Assembly: GCF_018613415.1 (NCBI RefSeq)
Contig: NZ_JAGGQG010000009.1
Span: forward strand, 62,001 to 126,000
Source of the DNA: Bacillus sp. ISL-18
GTDB lineage: Bacteria > Bacillota > Bacilli > Bacillales > Cytobacillaceae
Length of the DNA: 64,000 bases
Reading direction: 5' to 3'
Below the pieces are notes generated by a model that saw only the letters and a list, made by a program, of their open reading frames with translations, was not told where the DNA came from and ran no database searches. The translations under genes were made by a program, and so were the position numbers. Below, in pieces: positions 4,749 through 46,145 of this stretch (the stretch's first letter is position 1; each line of letters starts with the position of its first letter).

Positions 4749-5366
4749 TTAGAATAGTCCTGCTTCTCTTGCGGCAGAAATACTATTTCTAGCAAACTCT
4801 TCCGCAGACATGCCGACATTCTCCCAATGGATATACATTAAACGTGGATTTTCAAACAGCCAATGGTTATGAAAGGCCGTTACAATAAGGCCTCTTTTCC
4901 GTAATGCTGCAATAAAACGATTTAATTCTTTTTGGAGAACGACCGATTCACCAAGATTTAGACCATTATTTTCAAAGGATAACATAAACGGAAGTGCTAG
5001 CGGTGAACGTGTGCGGCGACCTAAAATAGTAGCATTAATATCGCGAAGGCGCATTACAGTACACACTGGTGCTGCTGCAATAACTTCGCCGCCGATAATA
5101 TCTGCCAGTCGTTGGCATTTTGAAGCAGTAATCTCCCTTACCTCACCACGGTCAGTACTTCTCATTCGTTCGCTTGACTCATGCCCTGTAAAGTTTGAAC
5201 TAGATTCAATTTCGAAATTCATCTCATTACTACCGTTTCTGTAAGAATGATGCCCTCTGGAGCTGGATTCAAATTCTACTTCCCTTTGATCTCTCCCGAA
5301 AGAGCCTGTATCGGTATCACGATTAACATATCTAAACCAATTTTCAAAAACGTCTCGTCTTGCCAT
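4749..5366 (-). CDS. DUF1259 (LppY/LpqO-like) protein, copy 1
   Basis: A 205-residue protein. Residues from about 85 onward match the DUF1259 family, named after the LppY/LpqO proteins of actinobacteria: LADIIGGEVIAAAPVCTV, INATILGRRTRSPLALPFML and the most conserved block VTAFHNHWLFENPRLMYIHWENVG. The first 80 residues are polar, Ser/Arg/Glu-rich and have no signal peptide or membrane segment, unlike the lipoprotein members. The start is the ATG at 5366, eight bases after AAGGAGG; an upstream GTG would lie within that site. It is 40 bp downstream of a paralogue. Function unknown. Confidence 0.75.
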   Translation of the reverse strand: MARRDVFENWFRYVNRDTDTGSFGRDQREVEFESSSRGHHSYRNGSNEMNFEIESSSNFTGHESSERMRSTDRGEVREITASKCQRLADIIGGEVIAAAPVCTVMRLRDINATILGRRTRSPLALPFMLSFENNGLNLGESVVLQKELNRFIAALRKRGLIVTAFHNHWLFENPRLMYIHWENVGMSAEEFARNSISAAREAGLF

Positions 5367-5406
5367 TAAAATCACCTCCTTCTCTTAGAACTAAATAACC
5401 ATAATT

Positions 5407-5889
5407 TTAGAAAAGACCTGCTTCTTTTGCAGCTTCAAAACTATTTCTTGCAAACTCAAACGGGTCCCCAACGTTCTCCCAGTGCATATACATTAACCGT
5501 GGTTTTTCAAAAAGCCAGTGGTTATGGAAAGCAGTTACGATAAGGCCTCTTCTTTGTAATGCAGACATCAGAGCATTAGCTTCTTTTTGAAGGAGTACAG
5601 TTTCCCCAAGGTTAAGAGTTCTTCCTCTTACATTGTCTTCAAAGGAAAGAGCAAATGGAAGGGCTAATGGAGATTCTGTGCGGCGGCCTAAAATCGTAGC
5701 ATTAATATTTCGCAGGCGCTGAACGACGCATGCTGGGGTTGATGCGATGACCACACCGCCGATAATATCGGCTAATTGTTGGCATGTTGAAGTGTTGACT
5801 CCTCCAACAGAATTACGGCTACTATTTCTACTTGCAGGATGCCATACACGACTTGATCCCATTTCATGATGAAAATCATTTGTTCCCAA
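5407..5889 (-). CDS. DUF1259 (LppY/LpqO-like) protein, copy 2
   Basis: A 160-residue paralogue of the neighbouring gene, sharing LADIIGGVVIASTPACVV, NINATILGRRTESPLALPF and LIVTAFHNHWLFEKPRLMY. Its N-terminal polar tail is shorter (about 40 residues). The start is probably the TTG at 5889, seven bases after AAGGGGGTGA; the farther GTG at 5910 lacks a site. The two genes look like an operon created by tandem duplication, with this copy upstream. No catalytic role is established for the family, though the conserved His and Trp residues suggest ligand or metal binding (inference). Confidence 0.75.
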   Translation of the reverse strand: MGTNDFHHEMGSSRVWHPASRNSSRNSVGGVNTSTCQQLADIIGGVVIASTPACVVQRLRNINATILGRRTESPLALPFALSFEDNVRGRTLNLGETVLLQKEANALMSALQRRGLIVTAFHNHWLFEKPRLMYMHWENVGDPFEFARNSFEAAKEAGLF

Positions 5890-6066
5890 TTTAATCACCC
5901 CCTTGTCCACTGATTACTAAACATTTTATTCAGGGATATTGGACAAGCATAGACAATTGACTCAGGGCAAATAACTTTTTTTTATTAATTTTTTGTTATG
6001 TACTTAGATTGATTTTGTCAATATGGCGGCTATTTTTATGATGCTAATGAGGCAGGTCGGTTGAAG

Positions 6067-18392: not shown

Positions 18393-18770
18393 TTACTTCG
18401 TTTTTTCATCCAATTCTTTCAACGCATCAGTAAGTTGGCTGTTTAAGTTTCCTAAAGCCTCTTTATCCAACGTCGCTGCTTCTGAACCTGCAATGGTTGG
18501 GTCTAGATATGTTTCAATTTTCTCGTATAAATCTTTGTTATCCTTCTTAACGTCATCTTCAAAAGAAGACCATTGATCCTCTAATTGCGGTCCAACTTCC
18601 TTTACTTTTGCCTGATCACCGCTATCAATTGCTTTTGACAATTCTTTCGTTGTGTCCAACATTTTATTTACACCATCTGAAACTTTTTGATCGGTTGAAC
18701 TACTACACCCTGCTAAAACTAATGCACTTCCAAGACCCAGGGCTAAAACTAGAGATGTTATTTTCATCAT
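18393..18770 (-). CDS. Lipoprotein related to the FTR1 ectodomain
   Basis: A 125-residue lipoprotein with a signal peptide and lipobox LAGC at residues 18-21 followed by CSSSTDQ. The mature part is helical and repeats a pattern also found twice in the ectodomain of the upstream permease: AKVKEVGPQLEDQWSSFEDD with KKDNKDLYEKIET aligns with AKKAYDQFNKTWRQIEEG with KADSATAYRDIES. Its ATG overlaps the stop of the permease gene by four bases, so the two are translationally coupled. It probably captures iron for FTR1 at the outer membrane face, taking the place of EfeO; this is inference. Confidence 0.8.
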   Translation of the reverse strand: MMKITSLVLALGLGSALVLAGCSSSTDQKVSDGVNKMLDTTKELSKAIDSGDQAKVKEVGPQLEDQWSSFEDDVKKDNKDLYEKIETYLDPTIAGSEAATLDKEALGNLNSQLTDALKELDEKTK

Positions 18771-20269
18771 GACAGCTTCCTACTTTCAAAGTTTGTATTT
18801 TTTTCCGTACTCAGTTTTTTGTTTTTCAATCTTTTAAATAAAATGATCATAACGGCAGCTGCAACAAGGATTGCCTGTGGAATAGTACTTTCCCATGAAG
18901 GATAAAGTGCAAAAAATTCAATACTTGGAATACTTGATGAATTCGTTGTTTGAATAAAACCGGCTAGCTGAAGACTGTGTATTCCCATCCCGGTAAACTT
19001 AATACAAAGGTAAAATACGATGATACTAGAGACCATAAAGAATGGGCGTAACGGTAGTTTCAAACCGATAAATACCATTAAGTAGGCTAAAACCCCAAGT
19101 ATCGCAGCTCCAATTAGAAAACCAATTAATAAAGACTGGAGACTTATTTGACTAGCCATTCCAATGTAAAATAGGACTGTTTCCGTTCCTTCACGAAATA
19201 CCGCCAGAAAGGCAAGTACGCCCAAAGAAACAAGCTTACCCGTGGTTAAAGCAGTTTGGCTTTTTTCACGAATATATCGATTCCAATCAGCAATATTGGA
19301 TTGACTATGAAGCCAATAACTCATGTAGAGTAACATGACTGCTGCAAAAACCCCAGTCCATCCACCGATCAGCGCATTATTATTACCAAAAGCTCCGGAT
19401 GAAATAACAAATTTCACAATGATGGCAAGGATTATGCTAACTCCAAGTCCAGATAATACCCCTGACCAAATCCAGCCTTTTCCTTTACCGGTTCCTGACT
19501 TTTTCACAAAGGACATTAGAGCAATAACAACCAATAATGCTTCCAGACCTTCACGAATTAAAATCATCGCTGCATCCCAGTATGTGTATTGAGATTTGTT
19601 CGCTAGAGGAGTTAAATAATTCACCATGTTATCTATAACTCTATTTGCTTGTTCGTAATTTGGTGGATTAGCAGATAGTATGGCCTGAATGGTAACCAGA
19701 TCTCTTTCAGAATCACTGTATACAGAGGCTGATTGAGCAACCACTACCCCTTCAACATCTAACCAACTATCACTAGCTTTTTTTATCCCTTTTAGTGCTT
19801 CAGCTTGATTTTGTTCTTTTACCTCTTTCTTTACTTCTTGTAAAAGTAAGATAAAATCATCTAAAGATAGATCTTTGTTCGTAACAGCTGCTTCCTTTGG
19901 ATAACCACCAGCTGAAAATTTGTCGTTAGTTGCTTTTAAATCTTTTAGTGCCACTAAAACTTGATCTGGTTTTTTAATAGTTAAGGCGTAAACGACCTTT
20001 CCCATATTTGATTCAATATCTCGGTAGGCAGTGGCCGAATCTGCTTTTATCCCTTCTTCAATTTGTCTCCAGGTTTTGTTAAATTGATCATATGCCTTTT
20101 TTGCTCCCGAAAGTTCCCCTTTCGATGCTAAATCTATAGCTTGATCAACTGATACGTTCGCCTTCTTCATCTCTTCTTTTGAATTTCCAACTGCTAACGC
20201 AGGAGTATGTACCCCCATACCAAAAATTAATAGAAGGATAGATATCAAAAGTAATAATTTCTTGCCCAT
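18767..20269 (-). CDS. efeU: FTR1-family iron permease with N-terminal ectodomain (EfeU-like)
   Basis: A 500-residue high-affinity iron permease. It begins with a signal peptide and an extracellular helical domain of about 210 residues containing two related repeats. Seven membrane segments follow, with both iron-binding REXXE motifs: REGLE in ILIREGLEALLVVIALMSF and REGTE in LAVFREGTETVLFYIGM. Such N-extended FTR1 proteins occur in Bacillus (YwbL). Two Fur boxes lie just upstream (20300-20360), so it is expected to be induced by iron limitation. No DyP peroxidase (EfeB) or M75 EfeO gene is present. Confidence 0.92.
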   Translation of the reverse strand: MGKKLLLLISILLLIFGMGVHTPALAVGNSKEEMKKANVSVDQAIDLASKGELSGAKKAYDQFNKTWRQIEEGIKADSATAYRDIESNMGKVVYALTIKKPDQVLVALKDLKATNDKFSAGGYPKEAAVTNKDLSLDDFILLLQEVKKEVKEQNQAEALKGIKKASDSWLDVEGVVVAQSASVYSDSERDLVTIQAILSANPPNYEQANRVIDNMVNYLTPLANKSQYTYWDAAMILIREGLEALLVVIALMSFVKKSGTGKGKGWIWSGVLSGLGVSIILAIIVKFVISSGAFGNNNALIGGWTGVFAAVMLLYMSYWLHSQSNIADWNRYIREKSQTALTTGKLVSLGVLAFLAVFREGTETVLFYIGMASQISLQSLLIGFLIGAAILGVLAYLMVFIGLKLPLRPFFMVSSIIVFYLCIKFTGMGIHSLQLAGFIQTTNSSSIPSIEFFALYPSWESTIPQAILVAAAVMIILFKRLKNKKLSTEKNTNFESRKLS

Positions 20270-21695: not shown

Positions 21696-23057
21696 ATGAT
21701 TGATTTAACCGTTTGGATAACCATCATTACCTTTTTGGTTACCCTCGGCTTTATTCTTTGGAGACCTAAAGGTATGAACGAAGCAATACCTGCTGCAATT
21801 GGGGCCATTATTGTCGTACTATGTGGAGGTGTCTCGTTATCAGACCTGGGGATTATTGCAGAAACGATTAGTGGTGCCGCTATTACAATTATGGCAACCA
21901 TTGTTATGGCGATTGTTTTAGAAAGTTTTGGTTTCTTTAATTGGGTTGCGGAAAAATTGGCTGCCAAGGCTAAAGGTTCAGGGATCCGTTTATTCTGGTA
22001 TGTCAACCTTTTATGTTTTCTCATGACTCTGTTTTTTAATAATGATGGAAGTATCTTAATCACCACCCCCATTCTTGTCATGTTATTAAACAACATGGGC
22101 TTGAAAAATCATCAAAAAATCCCTTATTTGCTTTCAGGGGGGTTAATTGCCACGGCTTCGAGTGCTCCAATCGGCGTGAGTAATATTGTTAACTTAATTG
22201 CTCTCAAAATTGTCCACATGAGTTTGTATTTGCATACAGCGATGATGTTTGTACCCGCAACATTAGGTCTGCTCTTACTAGTGGGGCTTCTGTTCTTACG
22301 GTTTTACAAAGTCCTGCCGAAAACCATACCAACGAAAATTTCAGGATTGTCGTCAAAATCTTACCATCCACTCAAACCAGTCCTTCAGCATGGCTCAGAC
22401 AAAGACCGTTCCAGATTTATGCGAAATGTACTATTATTCGTGTTCGCTGTCCGAATCAGTCTCTTTGTCGCCTCGTTTGTGAACATTCCCGTTTCTCTTA
22501 TGGCCGTTTTCGGATCACTTGTTCTGTTAGCATGGAGATGGGCGTATTTAAAAATCCCGCCTGGGGATATGCTGAAAAAAACACCTTGGTATATCATCGT
22601 TTTTGCTTTTTGTATGTATGTGATCATTTACGGTCTGAATAACATTGGGTTAACAGATTGGCTGATCACATTTATGCAGCCAATTGTTTCCGGAAGCCTG
22701 TTACATGCGAGTGTGATGATGGGTGTTCTTCTAACCGTACTCTCTAATATTTTTAATAATCACCCTGCGCTCATGGTGGGGACACTTACGTTAACGCATA
22801 TGCATCTAGATTTGCTCTCCTTGAAAATTGCCTATCTAGCAAACGTGATTGGCAGTGATATGGGAGCCTTATTGCTGCCGATGGGGACACTCGCTACGTT
22901 GATGTGGATGCACATTGTGAGAAAAGGAAAAGTGAAAATTACTTGGTGGGAGTATGTCAAAATTACCGGAGTGGTGATTCCTCCTACAGTATTATTCACA
23001 TTAGTCGTATTATATTATTGGGTTTCATGGCTTTTTGGCGGTGTACTTCAGCAATAG
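21696..23057 (+). CDS. ArsB/NhaD-superfamily permease
   Basis: A 453-residue membrane protein of the ion transporter superfamily with about eleven segments. Family features are the N-terminal WRPKGMNEAIPAAIGAIIVV, the LFFNNDGSILITTPI block (ArsB has TxxFANDGAALILTP here) and the second-half counterpart LSNIFNNHPALMVG. This suggests an arsenite or other anion exporter, as in B. subtilis YdfA-type proteins. No arsR, arsC or arsD lies nearby, so arsenic specificity is unproven. A protein with Sm-like repeats follows 27 bp downstream. Confidence 0.85.
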   Translation: MIDLTVWITIITFLVTLGFILWRPKGMNEAIPAAIGAIIVVLCGGVSLSDLGIIAETISGAAITIMATIVMAIVLESFGFFNWVAEKLAAKAKGSGIRLFWYVNLLCFLMTLFFNNDGSILITTPILVMLLNNMGLKNHQKIPYLLSGGLIATASSAPIGVSNIVNLIALKIVHMSLYLHTAMMFVPATLGLLLLVGLLFLRFYKVLPKTIPTKISGLSSKSYHPLKPVLQHGSDKDRSRFMRNVLLFVFAVRISLFVASFVNIPVSLMAVFGSLVLLAWRWAYLKIPPGDMLKKTPWYIIVFAFCMYVIIYGLNNIGLTDWLITFMQPIVSGSLLHASVMMGVLLTVLSNIFNNHPALMVGTLTLTHMHLDLLSLKIAYLANVIGSDMGALLLPMGTLATLMWMHIVRKGKVKITWWEYVKITGVVIPPTVLFTLVVLYYWVSWLFGGVLQQ

Positions 23058-23084
23058 GATGACATTAATAAAAGGAGAATGAGT

Positions 23085-23762
23085 ATGCTTATAGATTTTG
23101 AAGATTTAGAGGGAAAGAATATAGAGGTGGAAATTTCAGGAGGCATTATTCACAAAGGGACCTTACTGGACAGTGGATTGGACGTTATCGTCCTTTATGA
23201 TTATAAAAATCATTCTTACCTCTATATCCCCTTTATTCATGTTCAAAGTATTAAAGAAACGGTTCTAGACAAAGGAGAGGATGATTCCTATCAACCTCTT
23301 ACAGAAAAACCAATTGAGACGGATGGAATCTCGTTTCGGAAAGTATTAACCAGTGCTAAAGGATTATTTGTCCAGGTATATGTGACGGGGAATAAATCCA
23401 TTCATGGCTATTTAACAAGCATCATGAATGACTATTTTGTCTTTTACTCCCCAGTGTTCAAAACGATGTATATATCAATGAATCATGTCAAGTGGTTAAT
23501 TCCGTTTCCACCTGATGCAAAACCTTATTCTCTAAACAAAGAAATTTCATCACGAAAGCCTTTAGCCATTCCTTTAGCCCGATCCTTTGATGAGCAATTG
23601 AAAAAATTAGAAAGTCAACTGGTCATTATTGATGGTGGAGACCAGTCTGAAAAAATCGGCTTACTCCAAAAGATCCGCAATAACAAAATCACGCTTATTA
23701 CAGGTGACGGAGTCCCGGTATTACGGAATGTAGAGCATATTAAAACCATTCAATTACCGTAA
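23085..23762 (+). CDS. Protein with Sm-like repeats (DUF2642-like)
   Basis: A 225-residue soluble protein. Two clear repeats of about 60 residues resemble the DUF2642 fold: GKNIEVEISGGIIHKGTLLD, VIVLYDYKNHSYLYIPFIHV and GLFVQVYVTGNKSIHGYLTS, YFVFYSPVFKTMYISMNHVK. A third, weaker copy ends the protein (VIIDGGDQSEKIGLLQKI, NVEHIKTIQL). AGGAG is correctly spaced for the ATG at 23085, not for the one at 23079. It is cotranscribed with the permease. A spore or surface role is possible for the family; function is unknown. Confidence 0.65.
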   Translation: MLIDFEDLEGKNIEVEISGGIIHKGTLLDSGLDVIVLYDYKNHSYLYIPFIHVQSIKETVLDKGEDDSYQPLTEKPIETDGISFRKVLTSAKGLFVQVYVTGNKSIHGYLTSIMNDYFVFYSPVFKTMYISMNHVKWLIPFPPDAKPYSLNKEISSRKPLAIPLARSFDEQLKKLESQLVIIDGGDQSEKIGLLQKIRNNKITLITGDGVPVLRNVEHIKTIQLP

Positions 23763-24000: not shown

Positions 24001-24606
24001 TCAGTTTTTTACAATTTTATTTCTTTGATTGTACCATTTAAACAACAGAAAAATAAGAGTAATAATAAGTGCGATAATAATAACAGGAGTAACAAATGGT
24101 TTTGCAGCCTGATTAATTTGCTCCCATTTCGCTCCTAAATTCATGCCCAAGCAAATAAATAAAACGGACCATGGAATAATGGCAATAAGTGTATAAAAGC
24201 TAAATTTGGAAAATGGCATTTTCGCTATACCTGCTGGAATAGAGATCGCATGACGAACAACTGGAATAAAACGCGCCATAAAAATAACACCAGATCCATA
24301 TTTACTAAACCAATGTTGTGCAAGATCGATGTGAGATGAACGAATCAATATATATTTTCCAAATTTATCAAGAAAAGGTCTTCCACCATATCTGCCTATC
24401 CAATATAAAAACCACTGAGCAATAATACCGCCAATCGAGCCTGCGACAACTGCTCCCAAGAAAGAGATTTTTCCAATCGAAACTAAATAGCCCCCATAAG
24501 CTAATACAATTTCACTTGGGATGACTTCGACCATTAAACCCAAGGCAATACCTAAGTATCTCAGACTAGAAAGCAAATCAAATAACGTTTGAATCAAATG
24601 TGACAT
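24001..24606 (-). CDS. DedA family membrane protein
   Basis: A 201-residue integral membrane protein of the DedA/SNARE-associated family. It shows the family-defining GLMVEVIPSEIVLAYGGYL with its membrane-embedded glutamate, GGIIAQWFLYWIGRYGG and the basic RFIPVVRHAISIPAGIAKM motif. Members such as UptA return undecaprenyl phosphate across the membrane, and others flip phosphatidylethanolamine, so a lipid-flipping role is likely. It is the last gene of a minus-strand set with bcrC, 160 bp after it, so it may also have its own promoter. Confidence 0.9.
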   Translation of the reverse strand: MSHLIQTLFDLLSSLRYLGIALGLMVEVIPSEIVLAYGGYLVSIGKISFLGAVVAGSIGGIIAQWFLYWIGRYGGRPFLDKFGKYILIRSSHIDLAQHWFSKYGSGVIFMARFIPVVRHAISIPAGIAKMPFSKFSFYTLIAIIPWSVLFICLGMNLGAKWEQINQAAKPFVTPVIIIALIITLIFLLFKWYNQRNKIVKN

Positions 24607-24765
24607 AAGAATGTAAAACCTGCCTTTGATGTTAGTATAAAAAACTTTTCCTTTAAATCTGTACCCTGCACTCTAAACTGTTTCAATGTACTAAGGATTA
24701 GAGGGGCTGTTCAATCCGTTGTTACCAGTTATTAATTTAAGCTGAGAGCCACGACAATCCCATTT

Positions 24766-25356
24766 TTAATAATTTTTCGTTTTCTTCTCACTTGGTACAC
24801 TCTTGTTTACTAATGGCATTCTATTATAAAGATTAATCATTCTCTTTGATATCGGATGTATAATCGGGCTGATTTTATAAATAAAGATGCTCACAATGGC
24901 TGCAACAACCAGACTTCCTATGATGTCAAATGGATAATGATGGCCAACATATACCCGAGAGATACCTGTTAAAACCGCGAATAAGACCATACCGATTCCC
25001 AATTTTCGGTGACGGTATAGTACGGCAAGTGCTAAAGAAAAGGCTCCTGTTCCATGATCACTTGGAAAGGACGCATCAGATGAATGACTAATTAACAGAT
25101 TAACCTTGTGGGACACAAATGGACGGGGTTCAAAATAAATATGACCGATGACGACATTAATGAACAATGCGATGATACCAGTAATGGCTGCCAAAACAAC
25201 CGTATTTTTATATTTATCTTTTCCGAAGAACCACATTAGAAGTAAAACAACTGCATAAATGATTAAGGCATTTTGTGTGACAAAAACCATTAACCCATCT
25301 AGGATTGGATGATGACCGGCAGCTTGATTAATATCTTTAAATAATTGATAGTTCAT
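24766..25356 (-). CDS. bcrC: Undecaprenyl-diphosphatase BcrC (PAP2 family)
   Basis: A 196-residue membrane phosphatase that removes a phosphate from undecaprenyl pyrophosphate during recycling of the cell-wall lipid carrier. All three PAP2 motifs are present: EPRPFV, SFPSDHG and SRVYVGHHYPFD. Length and the N-terminal NYQLFKDINQAAGHH match BcrC. Homologues confer bacitracin resistance. It belongs to the envelope gene set transcribed from 28760. The window also contains the unrelated enzyme UppP at 48724 with the same activity. Confidence 0.88.
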   Translation of the reverse strand: MNYQLFKDINQAAGHHPILDGLMVFVTQNALIIYAVVLLLMWFFGKDKYKNTVVLAAITGIIALFINVVIGHIYFEPRPFVSHKVNLLISHSSDASFPSDHGTGAFSLALAVLYRHRKLGIGMVLFAVLTGISRVYVGHHYPFDIIGSLVVAAIVSIFIYKISPIIHPISKRMINLYNRMPLVNKSVPSEKKTKNY

Positions 25357-25412
25357 ATTTATTCCCCTTGTTCTATTCTTTTTAAGAGTAGTGGTATATT
25401 CCCTCTTCTCCT

Positions 25413-26102
25413 CTACAATTCATTAATTCTTACACAAGGCACATCACGACTTGATAATTCTTTAAATACTTTTTTTAATGCCGTAATGGTATTCATCGGA
25501 GCATCAACATCCGCTCCAGCTGTTTCTCCACAATCATGCAGTAGGACAACATCCCCGTTTTTGATATTCTGTAACAATCTCTTTTCTACTTTTTCACTGC
25601 CGCCTTTACTGCGCCAATCTTCCGCCATGACCGACCAATGGATGATCTTGTACTGTTTCATCAGTAGAAAATCAAGTAGAGTTAATAATCCCCATGGTGG
25701 ACGATAGTAGATCGGACGTTCGCCCGTAATTCTTTTAATGATCGAAGCGGTCTTATTTAGATGACGTCGAATCGTCCAAGGAGCCATCACCCAGTTGGAT
25801 TTGTGGACGTAATTATGAATGCCAATTAAGTGTCCCTCATCATGCATTCTTGCGATTAACTCTGGGTACTTCTCCGCTTTAGAACCAACCACAAAAAATG
25901 TTGCTTTAATATTATGTTTCTTTAACAGGTCTAAAAGCTGCGGCGTATAGACCGGATTGGGACCATCATCAAAAGTAAAGGCAACTTTATCAGAAGTGTC
26001 TTTACTTTTTAAGACCCCGATACCGGCACCCGCAGTTAGAATAAATGGGATTACCCAGTAAACTCCTACAAGAAACAATACAAGTAACCCGAACTTAATC
26101 AT
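25413..26102 (-). CDS. Polysaccharide deacetylase (NodB domain)
   Basis: A 229-residue membrane-anchored carbohydrate esterase 4 protein. An N-terminal hydrophobic helix (about residues 3-25) is followed by the NodB domain with the motifs FTFDDGPNP (catalytic Asp), IGIHNYVHKSN (metal His pair) and RPPWGLL, and later VVLLHDCGE. It would remove acetyl groups from an outward-facing sugar polymer or glycolipid. The ATG at 26102 has GGGGAG eight bases upstream and overlaps the end of the preceding gene by eight bases. The operon partners point to a lipid-linked sugar as substrate (inference). Confidence 0.9.
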   Translation of the reverse strand: MIKFGLLVLFLVGVYWVIPFILTAGAGIGVLKSKDTSDKVAFTFDDGPNPVYTPQLLDLLKKHNIKATFFVVGSKAEKYPELIARMHDEGHLIGIHNYVHKSNWVMAPWTIRRHLNKTASIIKRITGERPIYYRPPWGLLTLLDFLLMKQYKIIHWSVMAEDWRSKGGSEKVEKRLLQNIKNGDVVLLHDCGETAGADVDAPMNTITALKKVFKELSSRDVPCVRINEL

Positions 26103-26817
26103 TTCCTGTACTCCCCTTTTTTCGATCATTTTCTACCTTTTTAGTGCCTTTATCCATCGTTTTTCGTAAGACTATGCTTATGACAGAGGACGAAATAAAA
26201 AGTCCAGCGCCAATTATGAAAGGAATCATTCTTCCATGTTGCACCCCTGCAAATAAAGTACTTACTGATATTGTATAAGGCAGTATTCCTAAGGCTGTCG
26301 TCCATATAAAAGCCTTTTTGTTCACTTTTAATATACCTGCACCATAATTGATGAAATGATAAGGAACCAAAGGTACAAAACGGATAATTAAAAGTCCTAT
26401 ATCCCCTTGTATTCTCAACCATCGATCAATTTTTTCTAGATAAGGTTTTGCCAATGGTTTAATAATGGGACGAGCAATCCAATTGGATAATTGATACGCA
26501 AGGAAAGCCCCTAATATACCGCCAATCCAAGAATAGAATCCACCTGCAACTGGACCGTATATTTCAATTAGAAATAAAGAGACAAATTCGCCAGGCGCAG
26601 GGATGACATTTACGATCGTTTGAATCAAAATTCCTACTACTATCCCGAAAACGCCTAAGTGGCGAATTGAACCAAGCCATGTTTTTGCCGTTCCTGTATG
26701 AAGGAAATATAAATAAAGTCCCGTAAAAAGTAAGAAGATAACTAAACTGCCAATCGATAGAGAACGTGTGATCGTTAACCTTTTTTCCTTGTGTGAAACT
26801 ACTATTATATTTTCCAT
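26095..26817 (-). CDS. TVP38/TMEM64 (DedA-like) membrane protein
   Basis: A 240-residue VTT-domain protein. Conserved features are VNVIPAPGEFVSLFLIEIYG, GGILGAFLAYQLSNWIARP, RFVPLVPYHFINYGAGILKV and a final pair of membrane segments. The ATG at 26817 follows AAAGGGG. Relatives are thought to be lipid scramblases or flippases; in B. subtilis the closest named ones are YtxB/YdjZ types. It sits between a glycosyltransferase gene (22 bp upstream) and the deacetylase (8 bp overlap), so it may move their lipid intermediate. Confidence 0.87.
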   Translation of the reverse strand: MENIIVVSHKEKRLTITRSLSIGSLVIFLLFTGLYLYFLHTGTAKTWLGSIRHLGVFGIVVGILIQTIVNVIPAPGEFVSLFLIEIYGPVAGGFYSWIGGILGAFLAYQLSNWIARPIIKPLAKPYLEKIDRWLRIQGDIGLLIIRFVPLVPYHFINYGAGILKVNKKAFIWTTALGILPYTISVSTLFAGVQHGRMIPFIIGAGLFISSSVISIVLRKTMDKGTKKVENDRKKGSTGND

Positions 26818-26839
26818 CGTTCCCCTTCTTTCTAACTGA

Positions 26840-28012
26840 TTAACCAAATGTATACAATAGTTCGTCCAAACGGTTAGTGGTTTCTTTGGCATTCATAATA
26901 ACCTCTACTGACGCAAACGCAGATTCTTTCGGATGAAACTGTTTTGAATTCTCCCTCATCTGTTGAAGTAGTTCGCCATTATTCAATAATCCTGATAAAT
27001 GATGAACTAAATCTCGATCGGTTTCCGCTTGAACGGCAACCCCAGAATGAACGAGAAATTTTGCGTTATCCTGTTCCTGACCAGGAATGGGTTTATAAAG
27101 AAGCATGGGCAATTCCATCGCAATCGCTTCAAAAGTAGTCACTCCTCCTGGTTTTGTAATCATAAGATCGGAAATGGCCATTAACTCATGCACATAATCA
27201 ATATAACCAGTGAGAAGAATATGATGTTTGGAATCCTTTAGCTTCTCCTGTATTTGCAAACGAAGTTTTTCATTATGTCCACAAATAATAATTAATTGAA
27301 TCGGCTTTGATAATGCATCAATCTCCTGTATGGTAGAATTTCCATCCCCAATCATGCCACAACCGCCACCCATCACTAATAAAGTAGGTATGTGGGGATC
27401 TAAACCGAATTTCTCATAAATTTCCTCTCGTCGATAGGATTGAGAAAATGGCTGTCGAATCGGTATCCCTGTTTGAGCGATTTGATTCTCTTCCACGCCT
27501 AATGTGATGAGTGAATCGCGGACAATTCTTGAACCGACAATATATTGATCCGTAAAAGGATAAATCCAGCAGCTATGATCTGTATGATCCGTTATGGTGG
27601 TAACGCTAGGAATATCGGTTAATCCTAAGGATTTTACCTTTGACATGACAGCTGCAGCCAAAGGAAATGTACTTACAACGACCGTTGGCTGTACTTCTTC
27701 AATCAATTTAAGCATCCGGCCGACTCCTGTAGATAATATAGTCTTCATTACATTGGACAATTTGTTTACTTTTCTTGTTTTTTGATAAATATAGCCATAA
27801 AAACTAGGAAATTTTTTCACTCCCTGAAGGTATATAAAGCGGCTTAACTGATTGGAATAAGGATGAACCCATTCCATAAAATCGAAAATCACAGGTTCTA
27901 ATGATGGGTATCTTATTTGGATCGCATCATTTAGGGCTTGGGCTACTTGAATATGACCATCTCCGTAATTTCCCGTAAGGATTAAAACTTTCTCCTTATT
28001 CACTACTTTCAT
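26840..28012 (-). CDS. MGDG synthase/UgtP-type glycosyltransferase
   Basis: A 390-residue GT28-like enzyme. The N-terminal domain carries TGNYGDGHIQVAQAL, as in MGDG synthases and the diacylglycerol glucosyltransferase UgtP. The C-terminal half has the nucleotide-sugar site KPGGVTTFEAIAMELPMLLY and PGQEQDNAKFL. It should transfer a sugar from a UDP-donor to a lipid at the inner membrane face. Sequence features are close to the B. subtilis YkoN group rather than UgtP itself. It follows the PAP2 gene by 85 bp in the same direction. Confidence 0.88.
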   Translation of the reverse strand: MKVVNKEKVLILTGNYGDGHIQVAQALNDAIQIRYPSLEPVIFDFMEWVHPYSNQLSRFIYLQGVKKFPSFYGYIYQKTRKVNKLSNVMKTILSTGVGRMLKLIEEVQPTVVVSTFPLAAAVMSKVKSLGLTDIPSVTTITDHTDHSCWIYPFTDQYIVGSRIVRDSLITLGVEENQIAQTGIPIRQPFSQSYRREEIYEKFGLDPHIPTLLVMGGGCGMIGDGNSTIQEIDALSKPIQLIIICGHNEKLRLQIQEKLKDSKHHILLTGYIDYVHELMAISDLMITKPGGVTTFEAIAMELPMLLYKPIPGQEQDNAKFLVHSGVAVQAETDRDLVHHLSGLLNNGELLQQMRENSKQFHPKESAFASVEVIMNAKETTNRLDELLYTFG

Positions 28013-28097
28013 TTTTCTCCACTCCTTTAAATGGTGTTATTTCTATCTAAGGGTTTCGAATGCCCTCATTAACACGTGCTTCCCCACGTAAAAATGG

Positions 28098-28760
28098 CTA
28101 AATAGTGAAAGTATTCTCGGTAACAGACACTATGGATTGTTTTGGTAATAACAACCATCCATTCACGACGTCTACCATTTTATATAAACCATTCACTAAT
28201 AAAATTGCGGCAACCACATCCAAAATCACATGTTGTTTTATAAATAATGTGGCAAGGATAATAGATGTTGAGAAACATACAATAATCCATCTGATCCACT
28301 TGTTTAAGTGCGGATGGTTTCGAACAGTTCGTATCATTAGATAACTACTCAAGACATGAATACTTGGAAAGCAATTGTAAGGTTGATCAATTTGATAAAC
28401 ATACTGCAACAGTTGTGAAAGAACATCATGCCCAATAATCTCAGGGCGTAAAGGTCCCACTGTTTGATAAAAATAATAAATGAGAAGACAAATCAGTAAT
28501 CCCAAGTCAAAAACGAGAATCGTTTTAAAGGCAAGTGCAGGATCTTTAAAACAGAAATAAATCAATGTTATCGTTACGTAACCAACCCAGGCTACGTATG
28601 GAATCACAAACCATTTCACAACAGGAATGGCTTTATCTAAACTTGTAACAAGTGTATGAACACCGCGACTGGGTGTATTTAAATATGGATAAATCAACAT
28701 AATCGCTGGTATACTTAGCAAAAAACAAAGCATGCCAACAATTTTCCATTTTTTATTCAT
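28098..28760 (-). CDS. PAP2/AUR1-type lipid phosphatase or phosphotransferase
   Basis: A 220-residue six-segment membrane protein. PAP2 motifs are present in the AUR1-like form: VGPLRPE, NCFPSIHVLSS and IKQHVILDVVAA. Such proteins remove or transfer phosphate headgroups at lipid substrates, like inositol phosphorylceramide synthase. GGAGGAAATCGGAG precedes the ATG. It is the first gene of the minus-strand envelope set and shares an intergenic region with the response regulator gene. Confidence 0.85.
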   Translation of the reverse strand: MNKKWKIVGMLCFLLSIPAIMLIYPYLNTPSRGVHTLVTSLDKAIPVVKWFVIPYVAWVGYVTITLIYFCFKDPALAFKTILVFDLGLLICLLIYYFYQTVGPLRPEIIGHDVLSQLLQYVYQIDQPYNCFPSIHVLSSYLMIRTVRNHPHLNKWIRWIIVCFSTSIILATLFIKQHVILDVVAAILLVNGLYKMVDVVNGWLLLPKQSIVSVTENTFTI

Positions 28761-28828: not shown

Positions 28829-28880
28829 TTCTGAAGATTTTCTTAATTGTTAAAGGAAATCTTCAGAAAATCTTCAGAAA
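28829..28880. promoter_or_regulatory. Repeated response-regulator-type binding sites in a divergent promoter
   Basis: Two perfect, directly adjacent 11-bp repeats ATCTTCAGAAA lie at 28859-28869 and 28870-28880, and an inverted copy (TTCTGAAGATTTT) begins at 28829. OmpR-type regulators usually bind such tandem half-sites one helical turn apart. The elements sit upstream of a TATTAT box for the plus-strand regulator and upstream of the minus-strand PAP2 gene. Confidence 0.7.
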
Positions 28881-28943: not shown

Positions 28944-29648
28944 ATGTCGCAAGAAACCATTCTAATCATTGATGATGAAAAAGAAATACGAGATTTAATC
29001 GGGATCTATCTTACGAATGAGGGATATAACGTTCTAAAAGCAGCAGATGGATTGGAGGGGTTAAATTACCTGGAAGAAAACACGGTTCATTTGGTCGTTT
29101 TAGACATCATGATGCCGCGGTTAGATGGGATTCAAGCATGCATGAAAATTAGAGAAAACCGGAATGTTCCTATTATTATGCTATCTGCTAAATCACAGGA
29201 TATGGATAAGATCATGGGATTAACAACGGGAGCGGATGATTATGTCACAAAACCGTTTCAACCTTTGGAATTAGTGGCAAGAATAAAATCGCAGCTCCGC
29301 CGTTACCTTCGTTTTAATCAGATGGATGGGAATTCTAACCAACAGATGGAAGTAATTTCGATAGATGACCTATTAATCAATATCTCTACACATGAGGTCA
29401 CAGTGGATGGAAAAGACATAAAGTTAACACCAAGGGAATTTGCCATCTTAGAACTTTTGGCCCGGAATCCTGGCGTCGTGTTTAGTACGGAAAAAATCTA
29501 CGAACGAGTCTGGAATGAACCATTTTATGAATCTGAAAACACCGTAATGGTTCACATCCGGAATCTTCGTGAGAAGCTTGAAACAAACCCGCGAACACCA
29601 AGGTATATAAAGACCGTTTGGGGGGTTGGTTATAAAATTGAACAATAA
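28944..29648 (+). CDS. OmpR/PhoB-family response regulator
   Basis: A 234-residue two-component regulator. The receiver domain has the acidic pair in IIDDEKEIRD, the phosphorylated Asp in LVVLDIMMPRLDG (about residue 54), Thr/Ser in MLSAKS and Lys in VTKPFQP. The winged-helix domain follows with LTPREFAILELLARNPGVV and NTVMVHIRNLREKLE, ending GVGYKIEQ. GGAGAGG precedes the ATG. It overlaps the kinase gene and is divergent from the envelope operon, which it most likely controls. Confidence 0.93.
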   Translation: MSQETILIIDDEKEIRDLIGIYLTNEGYNVLKAADGLEGLNYLEENTVHLVVLDIMMPRLDGIQACMKIRENRNVPIIMLSAKSQDMDKIMGLTTGADDYVTKPFQPLELVARIKSQLRRYLRFNQMDGNSNQQMEVISIDDLLINISTHEVTVDGKDIKLTPREFAILELLARNPGVVFSTEKIYERVWNEPFYESENTVMVHIRNLREKLETNPRTPRYIKTVWGVGYKIEQ

Positions 29649-31251
29649 GAAAAGGACGCCCCTCTTCATTCCGAGTGGAAACTACTTAGATAAACTTTTC
29701 CATTTAATAAAGACAAGTCTAAGAATTAAGGTAATCATCGGGTTTACTGTTTGTATTTTTGTTTCTACGCTTGTCGGATTGGCCGCAAGCCCCTTTTTTG
29801 TTAGTGAGGATCGCAGACTTGATTTTACCGAAGGGGTTCTAACTATTGATGAAAGTGCACAAGATTTAGTCAGACAATTCAACCAAATGAATCAAGATAT
29901 AAAGGGACTCGTTATCGAATTAGGGGATGAGGAACCTGCCTTTAAAAATCAGTTCCTTAACCGTTCCATATCATCCTTAAAAGGAAATGAGGAATGGATC
30001 AATGTTCCAAACGGACATGGTTCGATTTATCATTTAACAAAAAATGAATTAATCCACTATTTAATCAATACGTCTACAAAACGAAACAATATCAAGGCAC
30101 TCATAACAAATTCATATGGAAAGGTCCTATTTAAGTCCAAAGGAGTAAGTGAAACAGAGGTCGATATTCAAAGTGTAAGGACAAATGCAAAAAAGACACT
30201 TGTCGGAAAAGATCATAATGAACATCCCACTGTTACAAGGCTATACCCGATAACCCTTGATAGAGGTAAGAACTATTTAATTGTCTCGGGAGTCCCTAAA
30301 TCCACAGCTGTTTATATAAAAGAAACCGGTGTTACGCCTTATTTACTTGGACTTGTTACGTTTATTCTCTGTTTTTATTTGATCACCAAACGGAAAATGA
30401 AAGAAATTGAGGAAATCGCTTTAGGATTAATGGAAATAGCAAAGGGAAATTTACATTATCGGATTCGGGAGAAAAGCAGCGATGAAGTGGGGTCGCTTGC
30501 AACCAATATCAATTACATGGCATCTGAATTAAACGAAATGATTGAAAGACAGAGACAGACAGAAAAGTTAAAGGATGAGTTGATCACCAATGTTTCCCAT
30601 GATTTACGGACGCCGCTAACTTCTATTATGGGGTATTTGAGACTAGTAAAAGACCATCAATTCAACACCCAAGCTCAATTAGATGAATACATTGATATTG
30701 CCTACGGAAAATCCGAACAATTAAAAAAGTTAGTTGAGGATCTTTTTGACTTTACACGGTTAACGTATCAAGGTGTACAGCTTAAGAAAGAAAAAGTGAG
30801 TCTAAATCAAATGATTAGACAGTTAATCGACGAACTTGACCCTATTGCAAATGATCACCATGTTATGTTTAGCGTCGATCTCCCAAAAGAACAAATCTTG
30901 ATGGATGTCGACCCGAATCAAATCGTGCGAGCATTGGAAAATGTGTTAACCAACGCAATTAAATATAGTACGCCCCCTGGCGACATTCATGTGCAAATGT
31001 ACAAAAACAAACATTCTGTCCAGATTTCTGTCTCAAACCCATGCGAATCTCTGTCTGAAGAAGAGGTTACCAGATTATTTGATCGCTTCTATCGAGTAGA
31101 TACCTCTCGTTCTTCCAACAAGTCTGGAGCCGGATTAGGATTGGCCATCACCAAAAGTATCATCGAGCTTCATCACGGTACCATCCATGTCGATTATAAA
31201 AATCAAGTGATTAAACTAACTATAAATTTGCCTTTTCACGTAGCGAATTAG
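29638..31251 (+). CDS. Sensor histidine kinase
   Basis: A kinase of about 537 residues from the TTG at 29638 (12 bases after a G-run; a TTG at 29626 would abut it). It has two membrane segments flanking an extracellular sensor domain of about 190 residues, then a HAMP linker, the HisKA box NVSHDLRTPLTSIMGYL, the N-box NVLTNAIKYS and the ATP-lid GAGLGLAITKSI. The gene overlaps the regulator stop by about 11 bases, so the pair is coupled. VanS-like architecture and neighbours suggest envelope stress sensing (inference). Confidence 0.92.
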   Translation: MNNKKRTPLFIPSGNYLDKLFHLIKTSLRIKVIIGFTVCIFVSTLVGLAASPFFVSEDRRLDFTEGVLTIDESAQDLVRQFNQMNQDIKGLVIELGDEEPAFKNQFLNRSISSLKGNEEWINVPNGHGSIYHLTKNELIHYLINTSTKRNNIKALITNSYGKVLFKSKGVSETEVDIQSVRTNAKKTLVGKDHNEHPTVTRLYPITLDRGKNYLIVSGVPKSTAVYIKETGVTPYLLGLVTFILCFYLITKRKMKEIEEIALGLMEIAKGNLHYRIREKSSDEVGSLATNINYMASELNEMIERQRQTEKLKDELITNVSHDLRTPLTSIMGYLRLVKDHQFNTQAQLDEYIDIAYGKSEQLKKLVEDLFDFTRLTYQGVQLKKEKVSLNQMIRQLIDELDPIANDHHVMFSVDLPKEQILMDVDPNQIVRALENVLTNAIKYSTPPGDIHVQMYKNKHSVQISVSNPCESLSEEEVTRLFDRFYRVDTSRSSNKSGAGLGLAITKSIIELHHGTIHVDYKNQVIKLTINLPFHVAN

Positions 31252-31297: not shown

Positions 31298-32191
31298 TCA
31301 CTTCCAACTACTCATGATTGGCTGGCTGTTTTTTGCCTGGCCTGCATGGGATAACCCGTAAATATCTTCTATCGTTCTTAATAAATTATAGTGATTAACA
31401 TTTTCATTGTATACTTCTGGTTTTACCATCGGCCCCACAAAGAAGGTTGGAATTATATTTTTGTTCGAACCCTCATCTTCATCCCAGGTAACGATCAAAA
31501 GGCTATTATGTGTGTTTGCCCATTGAACATACGGATCAATGTTATCTTTTAACCATTGATCGGCATCTTGGATCGTACCATCGTGCATGTCATAATCAAG
31601 ATTTGGTATGACAAATGAGACGGTTGGTAAGGTAGAAAAATCCTTTGGGAAATTTTTAAATGGTTGATTAGACTCCTTAGGTACATTCGTAAAGTTTGCC
31701 CAAGGATTGTGCTTCCGGGCATACCCATTTCCAGCAGACTCCTTATCATAACCGACAGAAGGTTGTCCCTCTGAATACCCCTTAAAGGAGTAATTCTTCT
31801 CAATTAATTCACTCGCTAAGTTAGCTGCGGAAAATTTCGATTTTGGCATCTTATCATCCGTTACCCCTTGATTGGACCCTGAAAATAAAGCCAAATAATT
31901 GGGCTGACTAGGATGTTGGATCGCATGATAATTGGTAAAATTAGCGCCCTGCTTCATTAATGAATTCATATAGGGTGCGGATGAGTTATTTTCAATCTGA
32001 CTTTTAGAATGGTTTTCCTCAACGACGATTAAAATATGATCAATTTTCGGAAGGTTCGCTTTTTCTTCCTCTTTATGTACAGTCTTTTTTTGAGTAGTTT
32101 GATTCTTTGGCTCATTTTGATTACAAGCAGTCAATAACAGCATGATTCCAACAAACAAAAACTTCCAGTTCTTCCTCAATGATATCTGCAT
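31298..32191 (-). CDS. Phosphoesterase-family lipoprotein (acid phosphatase/phospholipase C-like)
   Basis: A 297-residue lipoprotein with signal peptide and lipobox LTAC (Cys at about 23), then a Thr/Lys/Glu-rich spacer. The catalytic domain is of the alkaline-phosphatase-like phosphoesterase family (PF04185): HILIVVEENHSKSQI, HPSQPNYLALFSGS and LLIVTWDEDEGS. Members include phospholipase C and acid phosphatases cleaving phosphate esters outside the cell. It ends convergent with the kinase gene. Phosphate scavenging or lipid headgroup cleavage are both possible. Confidence 0.85.
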   Translation of the reverse strand: MQISLRKNWKFLFVGIMLLLTACNQNEPKNQTTQKKTVHKEEEKANLPKIDHILIVVEENHSKSQIENNSSAPYMNSLMKQGANFTNYHAIQHPSQPNYLALFSGSNQGVTDDKMPKSKFSAANLASELIEKNYSFKGYSEGQPSVGYDKESAGNGYARKHNPWANFTNVPKESNQPFKNFPKDFSTLPTVSFVIPNLDYDMHDGTIQDADQWLKDNIDPYVQWANTHNSLLIVTWDEDEGSNKNIIPTFFVGPMVKPEVYNENVNHYNLLRTIEDIYGLSHAGQAKNSQPIMSSWK

Positions 32192-44884: not shown

Positions 44885-46145
44885 CTAGTTGGTTTGGAAT
44901 TTAACCTTAGATTTGAAATCATCGGTTGCTTTTAACGCTTCATCCAATGTCTTCTTCCCTAAAAGCCATTCGGCGATATACGTAGTATATTGTTGTTGGT
45001 ACGGCCATGGAATTTGGACATTACCGATATTCGCATCGATAACACCAGCGTTTTTATATTGATTAATATCATTTACATAGTCACTTTTTACATCTGGGAC
45101 AACATCCGTAAGCAAGCTCTGAGTTTGTACCTGGTTAATGTATTCCTTTGCTAGATTCTTATCTGTTGCGAGGATTTCCAATACTTTTTTCACTTCTTTT
45201 GGATGTTCCGTTGTTTTGCTGGCTGACCAGGTATAATCAGATTGCATGATTAGTTTCGTATTCTCGGCATCAACAGCAGGTGTTGGGAAGAAACCGAGTT
45301 TAAAGTCAGGGTTATTCTTGAAGATTTGGGCAGGAGCCCATGTCCCAATAATCCACATCGCTGTTTTTCCATTGGCAAACATATCAGCTGCTCCAGTAAA
45401 ATCTACACCGAAAGGATCTTTTTCTGTATTTTCATAGAGATTCTTGAAATGTTGGAAGGTTACTTTATATTCTGGTGATTTGGCAAAGGAAACTTTTCCT
45501 TTTTGTAAATCAGAGCCCCACTCTGGATACTTAGAGAATACTTCTAATGTAGCAAACTGGTTCGCTGAATTGCCCATTTGATAGTCTTTAAAGTAAGAGG
45601 TAAATGGAGTGATTCCCTTAGCGTTTTGGCAACTTCCATTAATTCTGCCCATGTTTTAGGAATCTGGATTTGGTTGTCGTCAAAGATTTGTTTATTATAA
45701 AAAACTCCTTGGAAATTGGCTGTGTATGGTACAGCATAGTCTTTGCCATCTACTTGGAGAGTTTTACGGACATCATCTGGAAATTCTTTCATAAACGATT
45801 CATTGGATAAGTCCATTAAAAACTGAGCATACTTGGGATGATCTCCGCCCTTGATCATGACAATATCCGGAAGCTGTTTTCCAGCAATTCTTGTTTGCAT
45901 GACAGAGTTGAAATCCTTGTCCCAATTAATTTTTTAAATTGAAGTGTTACGTTCGGAAGTTTCTTTTTGACTGCTTCAACAAGGGCCTTTTGAGTTTCTT
46001 TCTTGTTGGTTGTATTCCAATCTAGGACCTTTAAGGTAATCTTTCCTCCTGCACTGGAACTTGACTTTGAACTGCAAGCGACTAAAGATAACATAAGTAC
46101 AAGAACAACTAGTACACCAGCTGCTTTCATAAAACTTTGCTTCAT
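44885..46145 (-). pseudogene. msmE: Sugar-binding lipoprotein MsmE, broken by two frameshifts
   Basis: An ABC solute-binding lipoprotein gene. The product begins with a signal peptide and lipobox LVAC, CSSKSSSSAGG. The frame breaks near 45935 (VTLQFKK then NWDKDFNSVMQTRIAG in another frame) and again near 45620 (ELMEVAK then AKGITPFTSYFKDY in a third). Adding one A to each of the two A-runs restores a protein of about 420 residues ending in LDEALKATDDFKSKVKFQTN. The rest matches MsmE-type raffinose-binding proteins. If real, the importer would be dead; if error, it is intact. Confidence 0.8.

Follow-up and report, generated by a model that had tools for sequence, protein, structure and literature searches.

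Gene organisation of the locus

The window analysed here is a 64,000-nucleotide stretch of the Bacillus sp. ISL-18 genome (6.24 Mb; contig NZ_JAGGQG010000009.1, positions 62,001 to 126,000). Between 28760 and 24001 its minus strand contains a run of six co-directional open reading frames (ORFs), encoding in this order a PAP2_3 protein, a glycosyltransferase (GT), a VTT membrane protein, a deacetylase (DAC), a BcrC-type PAP2 protein and a DedA protein. The position, strand and order of these ORFs, as proposed in the initial annotation, were borne out by the ORF list and Pfam searches. A divergently transcribed two-component system (TCS, 28944-31251) adjoins the run and was missing from the gene set of that annotation.

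The first gene (28098..28760, minus strand) encodes a putative membrane phosphatase or transferase of the PAP2_3 family (AUR1/IPC-synthase type; PF14378, 38.7 bits), to which no NCBIfam family matched. The GT gene (26840..28012, minus strand) specifies an MGDG_synth domain (PF06925, 94.9 bits), suggesting a role like that of HexS in the hexSDF system of Clostridioides difficile. Profile searches against the Protein Data Bank (PDB) matched this protein with 9wde, a processive diacylglycerol glucosyltransferase and the best match, as well as with 4wyi and MurG. The VTT protein (TVP38/DedA type; 26095..26817, minus strand; PF09335, 75.5 bits) is a candidate glycolipid flippase with a HexF-like role; its ORF as listed begins at 26892, but the ATG at 26817 is preferred, with a ribosome-binding site (AAGGGG) ahead of it. 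The DAC gene (25413..26102, minus strand; PF01522, 112.2 bits) encodes a predicted membrane-tethered CE4 deacetylase with a HexD-like role. Here the ATG at 26102, which overlaps the VTT stop codon, is preferred over the listed start at 26129, and the resulting 8-base overlap suggests that VTT and DAC are translationally coupled.

DAC has a single N-terminal hydrophobic segment (residues 1-32) and the CE4 motifs TFDDGP, HxxxH, RPPWG, EDW and LHD, which align with those of HexD and of two plasmid-encoded relatives. For each of the nine listed NCBIfam families it fell short of the equivalog cut-off, PgdA (NF045821; 137 bits, cut-off 400) among them, and its matches among solved structures included PgdA, PdaC and PdaA. 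The two remaining genes encode a BcrC-type PAP2 protein, probably an undecaprenyl-pyrophosphate phosphatase (24766..25356, minus strand; PF01569, 64 bits; 109.9 bits to the BcrC/YbjG-type undecaprenyl-diphosphate phosphatase equivalog NF008813, under its cut-off of 229), and a DedA-family protein (24001..24606, minus strand; PF09335) that scores 311.6 bits with NF052604, the equivalog model of the undecaprenyl-phosphate transporter UptA, and so passes its cut-off of 250. The initial annotation had counted two putative lipid flippases as one kind; this view had to be given up, given that one of them is UptA, a recycler of the carrier lipid, leaving VTT as the sole candidate for the glycolipid.

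The divergent genes encode an OmpR/VanR-type response regulator (28944..29648, plus strand; PF00072, PF00486) and a sensor histidine kinase (29626..31251, plus strand; PF00512, PF02518, PF00672). The 183-bp region between the PAP2_3 and response regulator genes holds a candidate operator (28829..28880, minus strand), in which two copies of TTTCTGAAGAT at 11-bp spacing (28880-28859) are followed by the inverted AATCTTCAGAA (28839-28829). The 22-base double repeat, with up to three mismatches allowed, occurs once in the window and in none of 100 shuffles. A tandem TTCTGAAG at 11-bp spacing together with an inverted copy was recognised by eye in all eight intergenic regions compared (the window and loci L035-L041), which is conservation among close relatives and not independent proof. 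Genome-wide, the gapped repeat pattern gave one exact copy and four sites with two mismatches, against none for a control pattern, so that the search for a regulon by DNA pattern returned just one exact site in the window genome. Next to the histidine kinase gene lies a PF04185 phosphoesterase gene (31298-32191), members of the same BLAST cluster being found near the GT of locus L143 (Aneurinibacillus tyrosinisolvens) and of L084, on a plasmid from Paenibacillus.

Conservation of gene neighbours across related loci

The survey covered 90 loci that carry the window-type GT, free of duplicates and with the window included, and neighbours were counted within 4.5 kb around the GT. At the family level 40 stretches were examined, covering 41 of 44 rows (all but the window itself, G084 and G086), and a scan of named genomes supplied 79 loci, the best among at least 480 that were confirmed. 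Before counting, 13 duplicates were removed, as were 22 loci judged not to belong to the window-type GT group (L071-L074, L080-L084 and L151-L163), while the short-contig loci L043 and L060, whose neighbours are possibly cut off, were kept. Since the loci are relatives of one another, and a single genome contributes more than one in some cases, the counts do not represent independent draws.

Of 60 Neobacillus genomes, 23 have the window GT (E <= 1e-60), as do 36 of 193 in the family; in Priestia (two genomes searched, group of P. koreensis) the GT relative is 42% identical. The nearest named genome with a window-type GT is Neobacillus drentensis JC05 (95% identity), whereas NBRC 102427, another record under the name N. 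drentensis, has a relative of just 52% identity, suggesting that this species name is used loosely. The contamination of the window assembly is listed as 8.27, and several other Neobacillus genomes have similar values.

Canonical UgtP was found over its cut-off in none of the 60 Neobacillus genomes, with B. subtilis as positive control. This result, together with the best PDB match being a glucosyltransferase acting on diacylglycerol, would fit a GT that replaces UgtP here, its product being a plain glucolipid or the anchor of lipoteichoic acid and its neighbours only tuning membrane charge and carrier supply. We regard this as very unlikely, since the GT is present in fewer than half of the genus genomes, unlike a housekeeping enzyme, and UgtP forms a separate clade of its own. 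In the GT tree (113 of 125 rows kept; L043, L054, L060, L070 and L139, short GTs and identical rows left out) UgtP makes up a separate starred clade of six rows, the four locus rows of which have no DAC nearby. The diglucosyl-diacylglycerol synthase UgtP/YpfP thus shares the PF06925 family with the window GT but not its clade, and, as the latter reached only 306.6 bits with the UgtP equivalog NF010135 (cut-off 500), its identification as UgtP was ruled out.

A DAC gene on the same strand lies near the GT in 59 of the 90 loci. With eight CE4 matches in the window genome, a 9-kb stretch would be expected to contain one about 1% of the time, and the proximity of GT and DAC is therefore above chance. 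Both TCS genes occur near the GT in 28 loci, UptA and PAP2_3 in 15 each, a major facilitator superfamily (MFS) protein in 12 (11 of these with DAC) and BcrC in 11. Among the eight nearest relatives by GT (L035-L041 and L088; 77-95% identity), the TCS adjoins the cluster in all eight and DAC is likewise present in all, VTT in seven, PAP2_3, ahead of the GT, in six, UptA in three and BcrC in none. GT, VTT and DAC are thus kept together in seven of the eight, L088 being the one without VTT, and the interpretation put forward in the initial annotation, that a lipid-linked sugar is made inside, moved out and deacetylated, stands as the best reading of this trio. Its companion idea of a fixed set of six genes does not, because in close relatives BcrC is not found beside the GT at all and UptA mostly not. 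As core members of the cluster these two genes were ruled out; they appear from the comparison of loci to be a variable tail for carrier-lipid recycling, added in the window strain. Within the same GT clade at 69-70% identity, L043 and L044 have DAC without VTT and L042 has neither, the latter carrying BcrC- and UptA-type genes on the opposite strand, 3-4 kb off. Other versions of the cluster, including a second one in the window genome, do contain BcrC-type PAP2 genes.

The adjoining UptA and BcrC genes invite another explanation, in which undecaprenyl phosphate (UndP), and not a glycerolipid, bears the sugar: UndP-linked N-acetylglucosamine (GlcNAc) would be made, flipped and deacetylated, the amino sugar passed to a wall or lipid polymer, and the carrier recycled by BcrC and UptA. 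Pathways of the ArnD/NaxD type deacetylate a UndP-linked sugar. In addition, GtrA, a GtrB-like GT2 and DUF6044 (labels from Pfam run on one member each) are encoded near some of the 90 GT loci (8, 8 and 10, respectively), and the second cluster of the window genome includes DUF6044 and a GT2, kinds of protein to which we presume YkoS and YkoT of B. subtilis belong. BcrC, UptA, YkoS, YkoT and UndP-sugars are treated in studies of B. subtilis, which report that YkoT and YkoS act on UndP-linked sugars and place UptA/BcrC recycling under SigM (PMC11898649, PMC11081497), in contrast to the window, where it stands behind a TCS-linked lipid operon. However, the window GT belongs to the MGDG/UgtP family and is not a GT2 polyprenyl-phosphate transferase, a final transferase is absent from the window cluster, and neither UptA nor BcrC is conserved beside the GT. 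Moreover, BcrC-type enzymes need a pyrophosphate, which is not produced from a UndP-sugar. We therefore consider a UndP-borne sugar improbable.

On the other flank of the cluster, an ArsB-like transporter and a 227-aa protein without any Pfam or NCBIfam match are encoded (21696-23762). In L143, members of both BLAST clusters stand next to the GT and a gene of DedA type, and conservation of the neighbourhood may therefore reach beyond six genes.

Relationship to hexSDF and the proposed pathway

In C. difficile, hexSDF is reported to be required for the aminosugar glycolipid HNHDRG and for resistance to daptomycin and bacitracin (PMC10128005). UgtA supplies the acceptor of HexS, and hexSDF together with ugtA yields HNHDRG in B. 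subtilis (PMC11898633), a species described in the former report as having no operon homologous to hexSDF (PMC10128005). We read hexS, hexD, hexF, hexR and hexK from a C. difficile genome, in which a GT is 100% identical to that of a named C. difficile record and the genes follow the published order, with the neighbouring glyA recognised by eye. Pfam assigned HexS to PF06925, HexD to PF01522 and HexF to PF03706. The two systems have in common an MGDG-type GT, an N-terminally anchored CE4 deacetylase and an adjacent TCS. They differ in the flippase slot, filled by PF03706 in C. difficile and by VTT in the window cluster, in the position of the TCS, downstream in the former and divergent in the latter, and in PAP2_3, BcrC and UptA, which are extra in the window.

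The individual proteins were also compared pairwise. Among the four MGDG-type GTs of the window genome, the window GT is the best match of HexS (170 bits; the others 76.6, 93.6 and 99), while HexR is 45% identical to the window response regulator and HexK 31.5% identical to the histidine kinase over 298 aa. DAC and HexD each pick out the other as best match, though by a narrow margin: HexD ranks DAC first among the eight CE4 matches of the window genome (37% identity, 147.9 bits), and DAC ranks HexD first among ten in C. difficile (149.8 bits, with 123.4 for the runner-up).

A deacetylase tree was built after dropping 13 duplicates (63 GT-linked rows, that is 58 loci and five references, and 24 labelled unlinked; L084 is in neither tree). 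Of the unlinked CE4 proteins of three genomes, 22 of the 24 form one starred clade, with none of the GT-linked rows inside; the other two are L210, a mislabelled row that is the second-cluster deacetylase of N. drentensis, and L235, a fragment. A weak fork (82/65) puts ten linked rows, from Alicyclobacillaceae, metagenome-assembled genomes (MAGs) and a Clostridiales bin, on the same side as the unlinked ones. The GT-linked deacetylases thus appear to stand apart from the other CE4 proteins of the three genomes, which does not imply a single origin. This separation bears on the suggestion of a general envelope-stress operon in which DAC, as an ordinary deacetylase of peptidoglycan, and a UgtP-like synthase of glucolipids are regulated together but have no common product. 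The CE4 family of DAC, with PgdA, PdaC and PdaA among the matched structures, the role of BcrC and UptA in peptidoglycan synthesis and the score of the GT with the UgtP model would all be in keeping with such an operon. Although DAC shares the CE4 domain and motifs with PgdA, PdaA and PdaB, it misses the equivalog cut-offs, with a best PgdA score of about a third of that required, lies outside the starred clade and is encoded beside the GT in most of the surveyed loci. Relatives of DAC also adjoin two other MGDG-type GTs, namely HexS on the one hand and the second GT of the window genome with its plasmid relatives on the other. On balance, a peptidoglycan deacetylase seems unlikely.

The preferred reading, to which we give a probability of roughly 0.6, is that the window carries a TCS-controlled operon which, along the lines of hexSDF, makes a membrane lipid bearing an aminosugar. 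This reading builds on the gene set, the families, the intact deacetylase motifs, the conserved neighbourhood and the repeat, all evident in the sequence. In this scheme, the cytosolic MGDG-type GT would add an N-acetylhexosamine, probably GlcNAc, to a glycerolipid, for which diacylglycerol, a glycosyl-diacylglycerol or phosphatidylglycerol may serve as acceptor. VTT may then carry the glycolipid to the outer leaflet, a job ascribed to the PF03706 flippase in C. difficile, where the membrane-tethered DAC would strip the N-acetyl group on the outside to leave a positively charged headgroup. PAP2_3 may contribute to this pathway by acting on some lipid phosphate. The window strain has BcrC and UptA in addition, and with the genes presumably co-transcribed, carrier-lipid recycling would rise along with the operon. 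The divergent TCS would activate the set via the tandem repeats in the shared promoter, and the trigger is probably envelope stress from bacitracin-, daptomycin- or cationic-peptide-like agents.

The same logic of GT, deacetylase and flippase, with an aminosugar lipid as product, is found in gpgSDF, which makes glucosaminyl-phosphatidylglycerol (GlcN-PG) in Pseudomonas aeruginosa (PMC12713373). Compared by description, its proteins belong to other families, namely GT family 4 (cd03814), COG3233 and UPF0104 (PMC12713373), against PF06925, PF01522 and PF09335 in the window. The initial annotation knew of no described system with exactly this gene set; hexSDF (PMC10128005) and gpgSDF (PMC12713373), as reported, precede it, and a wholly undescribed pathway is ruled out. 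Its interpretation is therefore kept in part, the sugar-lipid scheme for GT, VTT and DAC being retained and the novelty, the fixed six-gene set and the two alike flippases given up. Having no PF03706 flippase, the window cluster falls outside hexSDF in the strict sense yet would work like it; it is a variant of the hexSDF/gpgSDF logic with a different membrane transporter, present twice in the genome. No Bacillus version of a hexSDF-like system was recognised among the titles and abstract beginnings of the papers listed from the open-licence literature, nor was a report of an aminoglycolipid from Neobacillus found there.

Several observations weigh against the hexSDF-like reading. No PF03706 protein is encoded in the window cluster, HexF is reported to be dispensable for HNHDRG in C. 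difficile (PMC10128005), and the deacetylase of Pseudomonas GpgSDF is thought to act inside (PMC12713373). In the GT tree, the window GT is not joined with HexS, which sits on a long branch beside a second C. difficile GT (UgtB, judged from its position). In the match with HexD, DAC leads the second deacetylase of the window genome (146.4 bits) by 1.5 bits, and the paralogue overtakes it in N. drentensis JC05 (146.0 versus 145.1 bits). The GT-linked deacetylases form one clade in 0% of 200 bootstrap trees. Without a canonical UgtP in the genus, the monohexosyl-lipid acceptor needed by HexS may be absent, so that either another GT supplies this lipid or the window GT uses diacylglycerol or phosphatidylglycerol directly. 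A VTT protein of the window type is present in only 8 of the 90 loci, the window and L035-L041. Of the 59 GT-DAC loci, 28 have at least one of VTT, UptA, MFS and GtrA nearby and the remaining 31 have none. Finally, 31 of the 90 GT loci have no DAC of this kind nearby, suggesting that the GT may do another job there.

A second cluster, plasmid-borne relatives and a wider distribution

The second cluster of the window genome, on contig C4 (L264:3848-11926), has the co-directional order TCS-DAC-DedA-GT-BcrC-DUF6044-GT2, its response regulator having been recognised by eye. Its DAC is the second-best match to the window DAC in the genome (47% identity), and all eight genes recur in N. drentensis JC05 at 95-99% identity. 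A DAC at least 64% identical to the second-cluster one is encoded in 16 of the 60 Neobacillus genomes. The arrangement DAC-DedA-GT is also found on plasmids of Anoxybacillus amylolyticus and Pseudalkalibacillus hwajinpoensis, whose DACs are 49% and 42% identical to that of the window, respectively. The cluster on the A. amylolyticus plasmid (L164:3058-8440) has as neighbours a set of genes for a circular bacteriocin and a gene resembling those of D-Ala-D-Ala ligases. A plasmid of Paenibacillus cellulositrophicus encodes a TCS, an undecaprenyl-diphosphatase, an alkaline-phosphatase-family protein, a GT and two VTT proteins, with no DAC within the stretch examined.

The order GT-MFS-DAC occurs in Alicyclobacillaceae and some Bacillota MAGs (L127, L128, L133, L135, L137 and L141), and another MFS protein is encoded in L145; the MFS assignment comes from Pfam for L135 and L145 and from clustering for the remaining loci. 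The MFS protein is possibly a third transporter for the same slot. In Heyndrickxia coagulans (L093:5668-10563) and Weizmannia acidilactici (L094:5799-10588), GT-DAC-BcrC lies downstream of genes resembling, by eye, an extracytoplasmic function (ECF) sigma factor and a zinc-finger anti-sigma factor, and no TCS was seen near either.

These arrangements raise the tentative idea, which we hold to be somewhat doubtful, of a general Bacilli module in which an MGDG-type GT and a HexD-related CE4 deacetylase make cationic aminosugar lipids while unrelated transporters fill the flippase slot: VTT/DedA in Neobacillus and on the two plasmids, PF03706 in C. difficile, and an MFS protein in Alicyclobacillaceae as well as in some MAGs. 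The idea is weakened by the narrow occurrence of the window VTT type and by the linked deacetylases not forming one clade. Were it true, VTT proteins would be glycolipid flippases, giving testable substrates for VTT/DedA proteins other than UptA, and an aminosugar-glycolipid defence of the C. difficile type would be widespread in Bacilli, under several regulators, also on plasmids and using unrelated transporter families. It would also separate a lipid-acting CE4 group from the wall-acting CE4 enzymes and supply candidate genes for the aminosugar lipids of bacilli, for which the available text of the open-licence literature found on the subject names none. Among these lipids, the GlcN-PG of Bacillus megaterium, reported since the 1960s and increasing in acid (PMC12713373), would have the module as a candidate source.

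Elsewhere in the window, two adjoining paralogues of PF07485 (DUF1259) are encoded at 4749-5910, and at 18393-20269 an FTR1 iron permease gene is followed by what appears by eye to be a small lipoprotein-like gene. At 44885-45652, ahead of two ABC permease genes, an ORF resembles by eye the end part of a sugar-binding protein and may be cut short.

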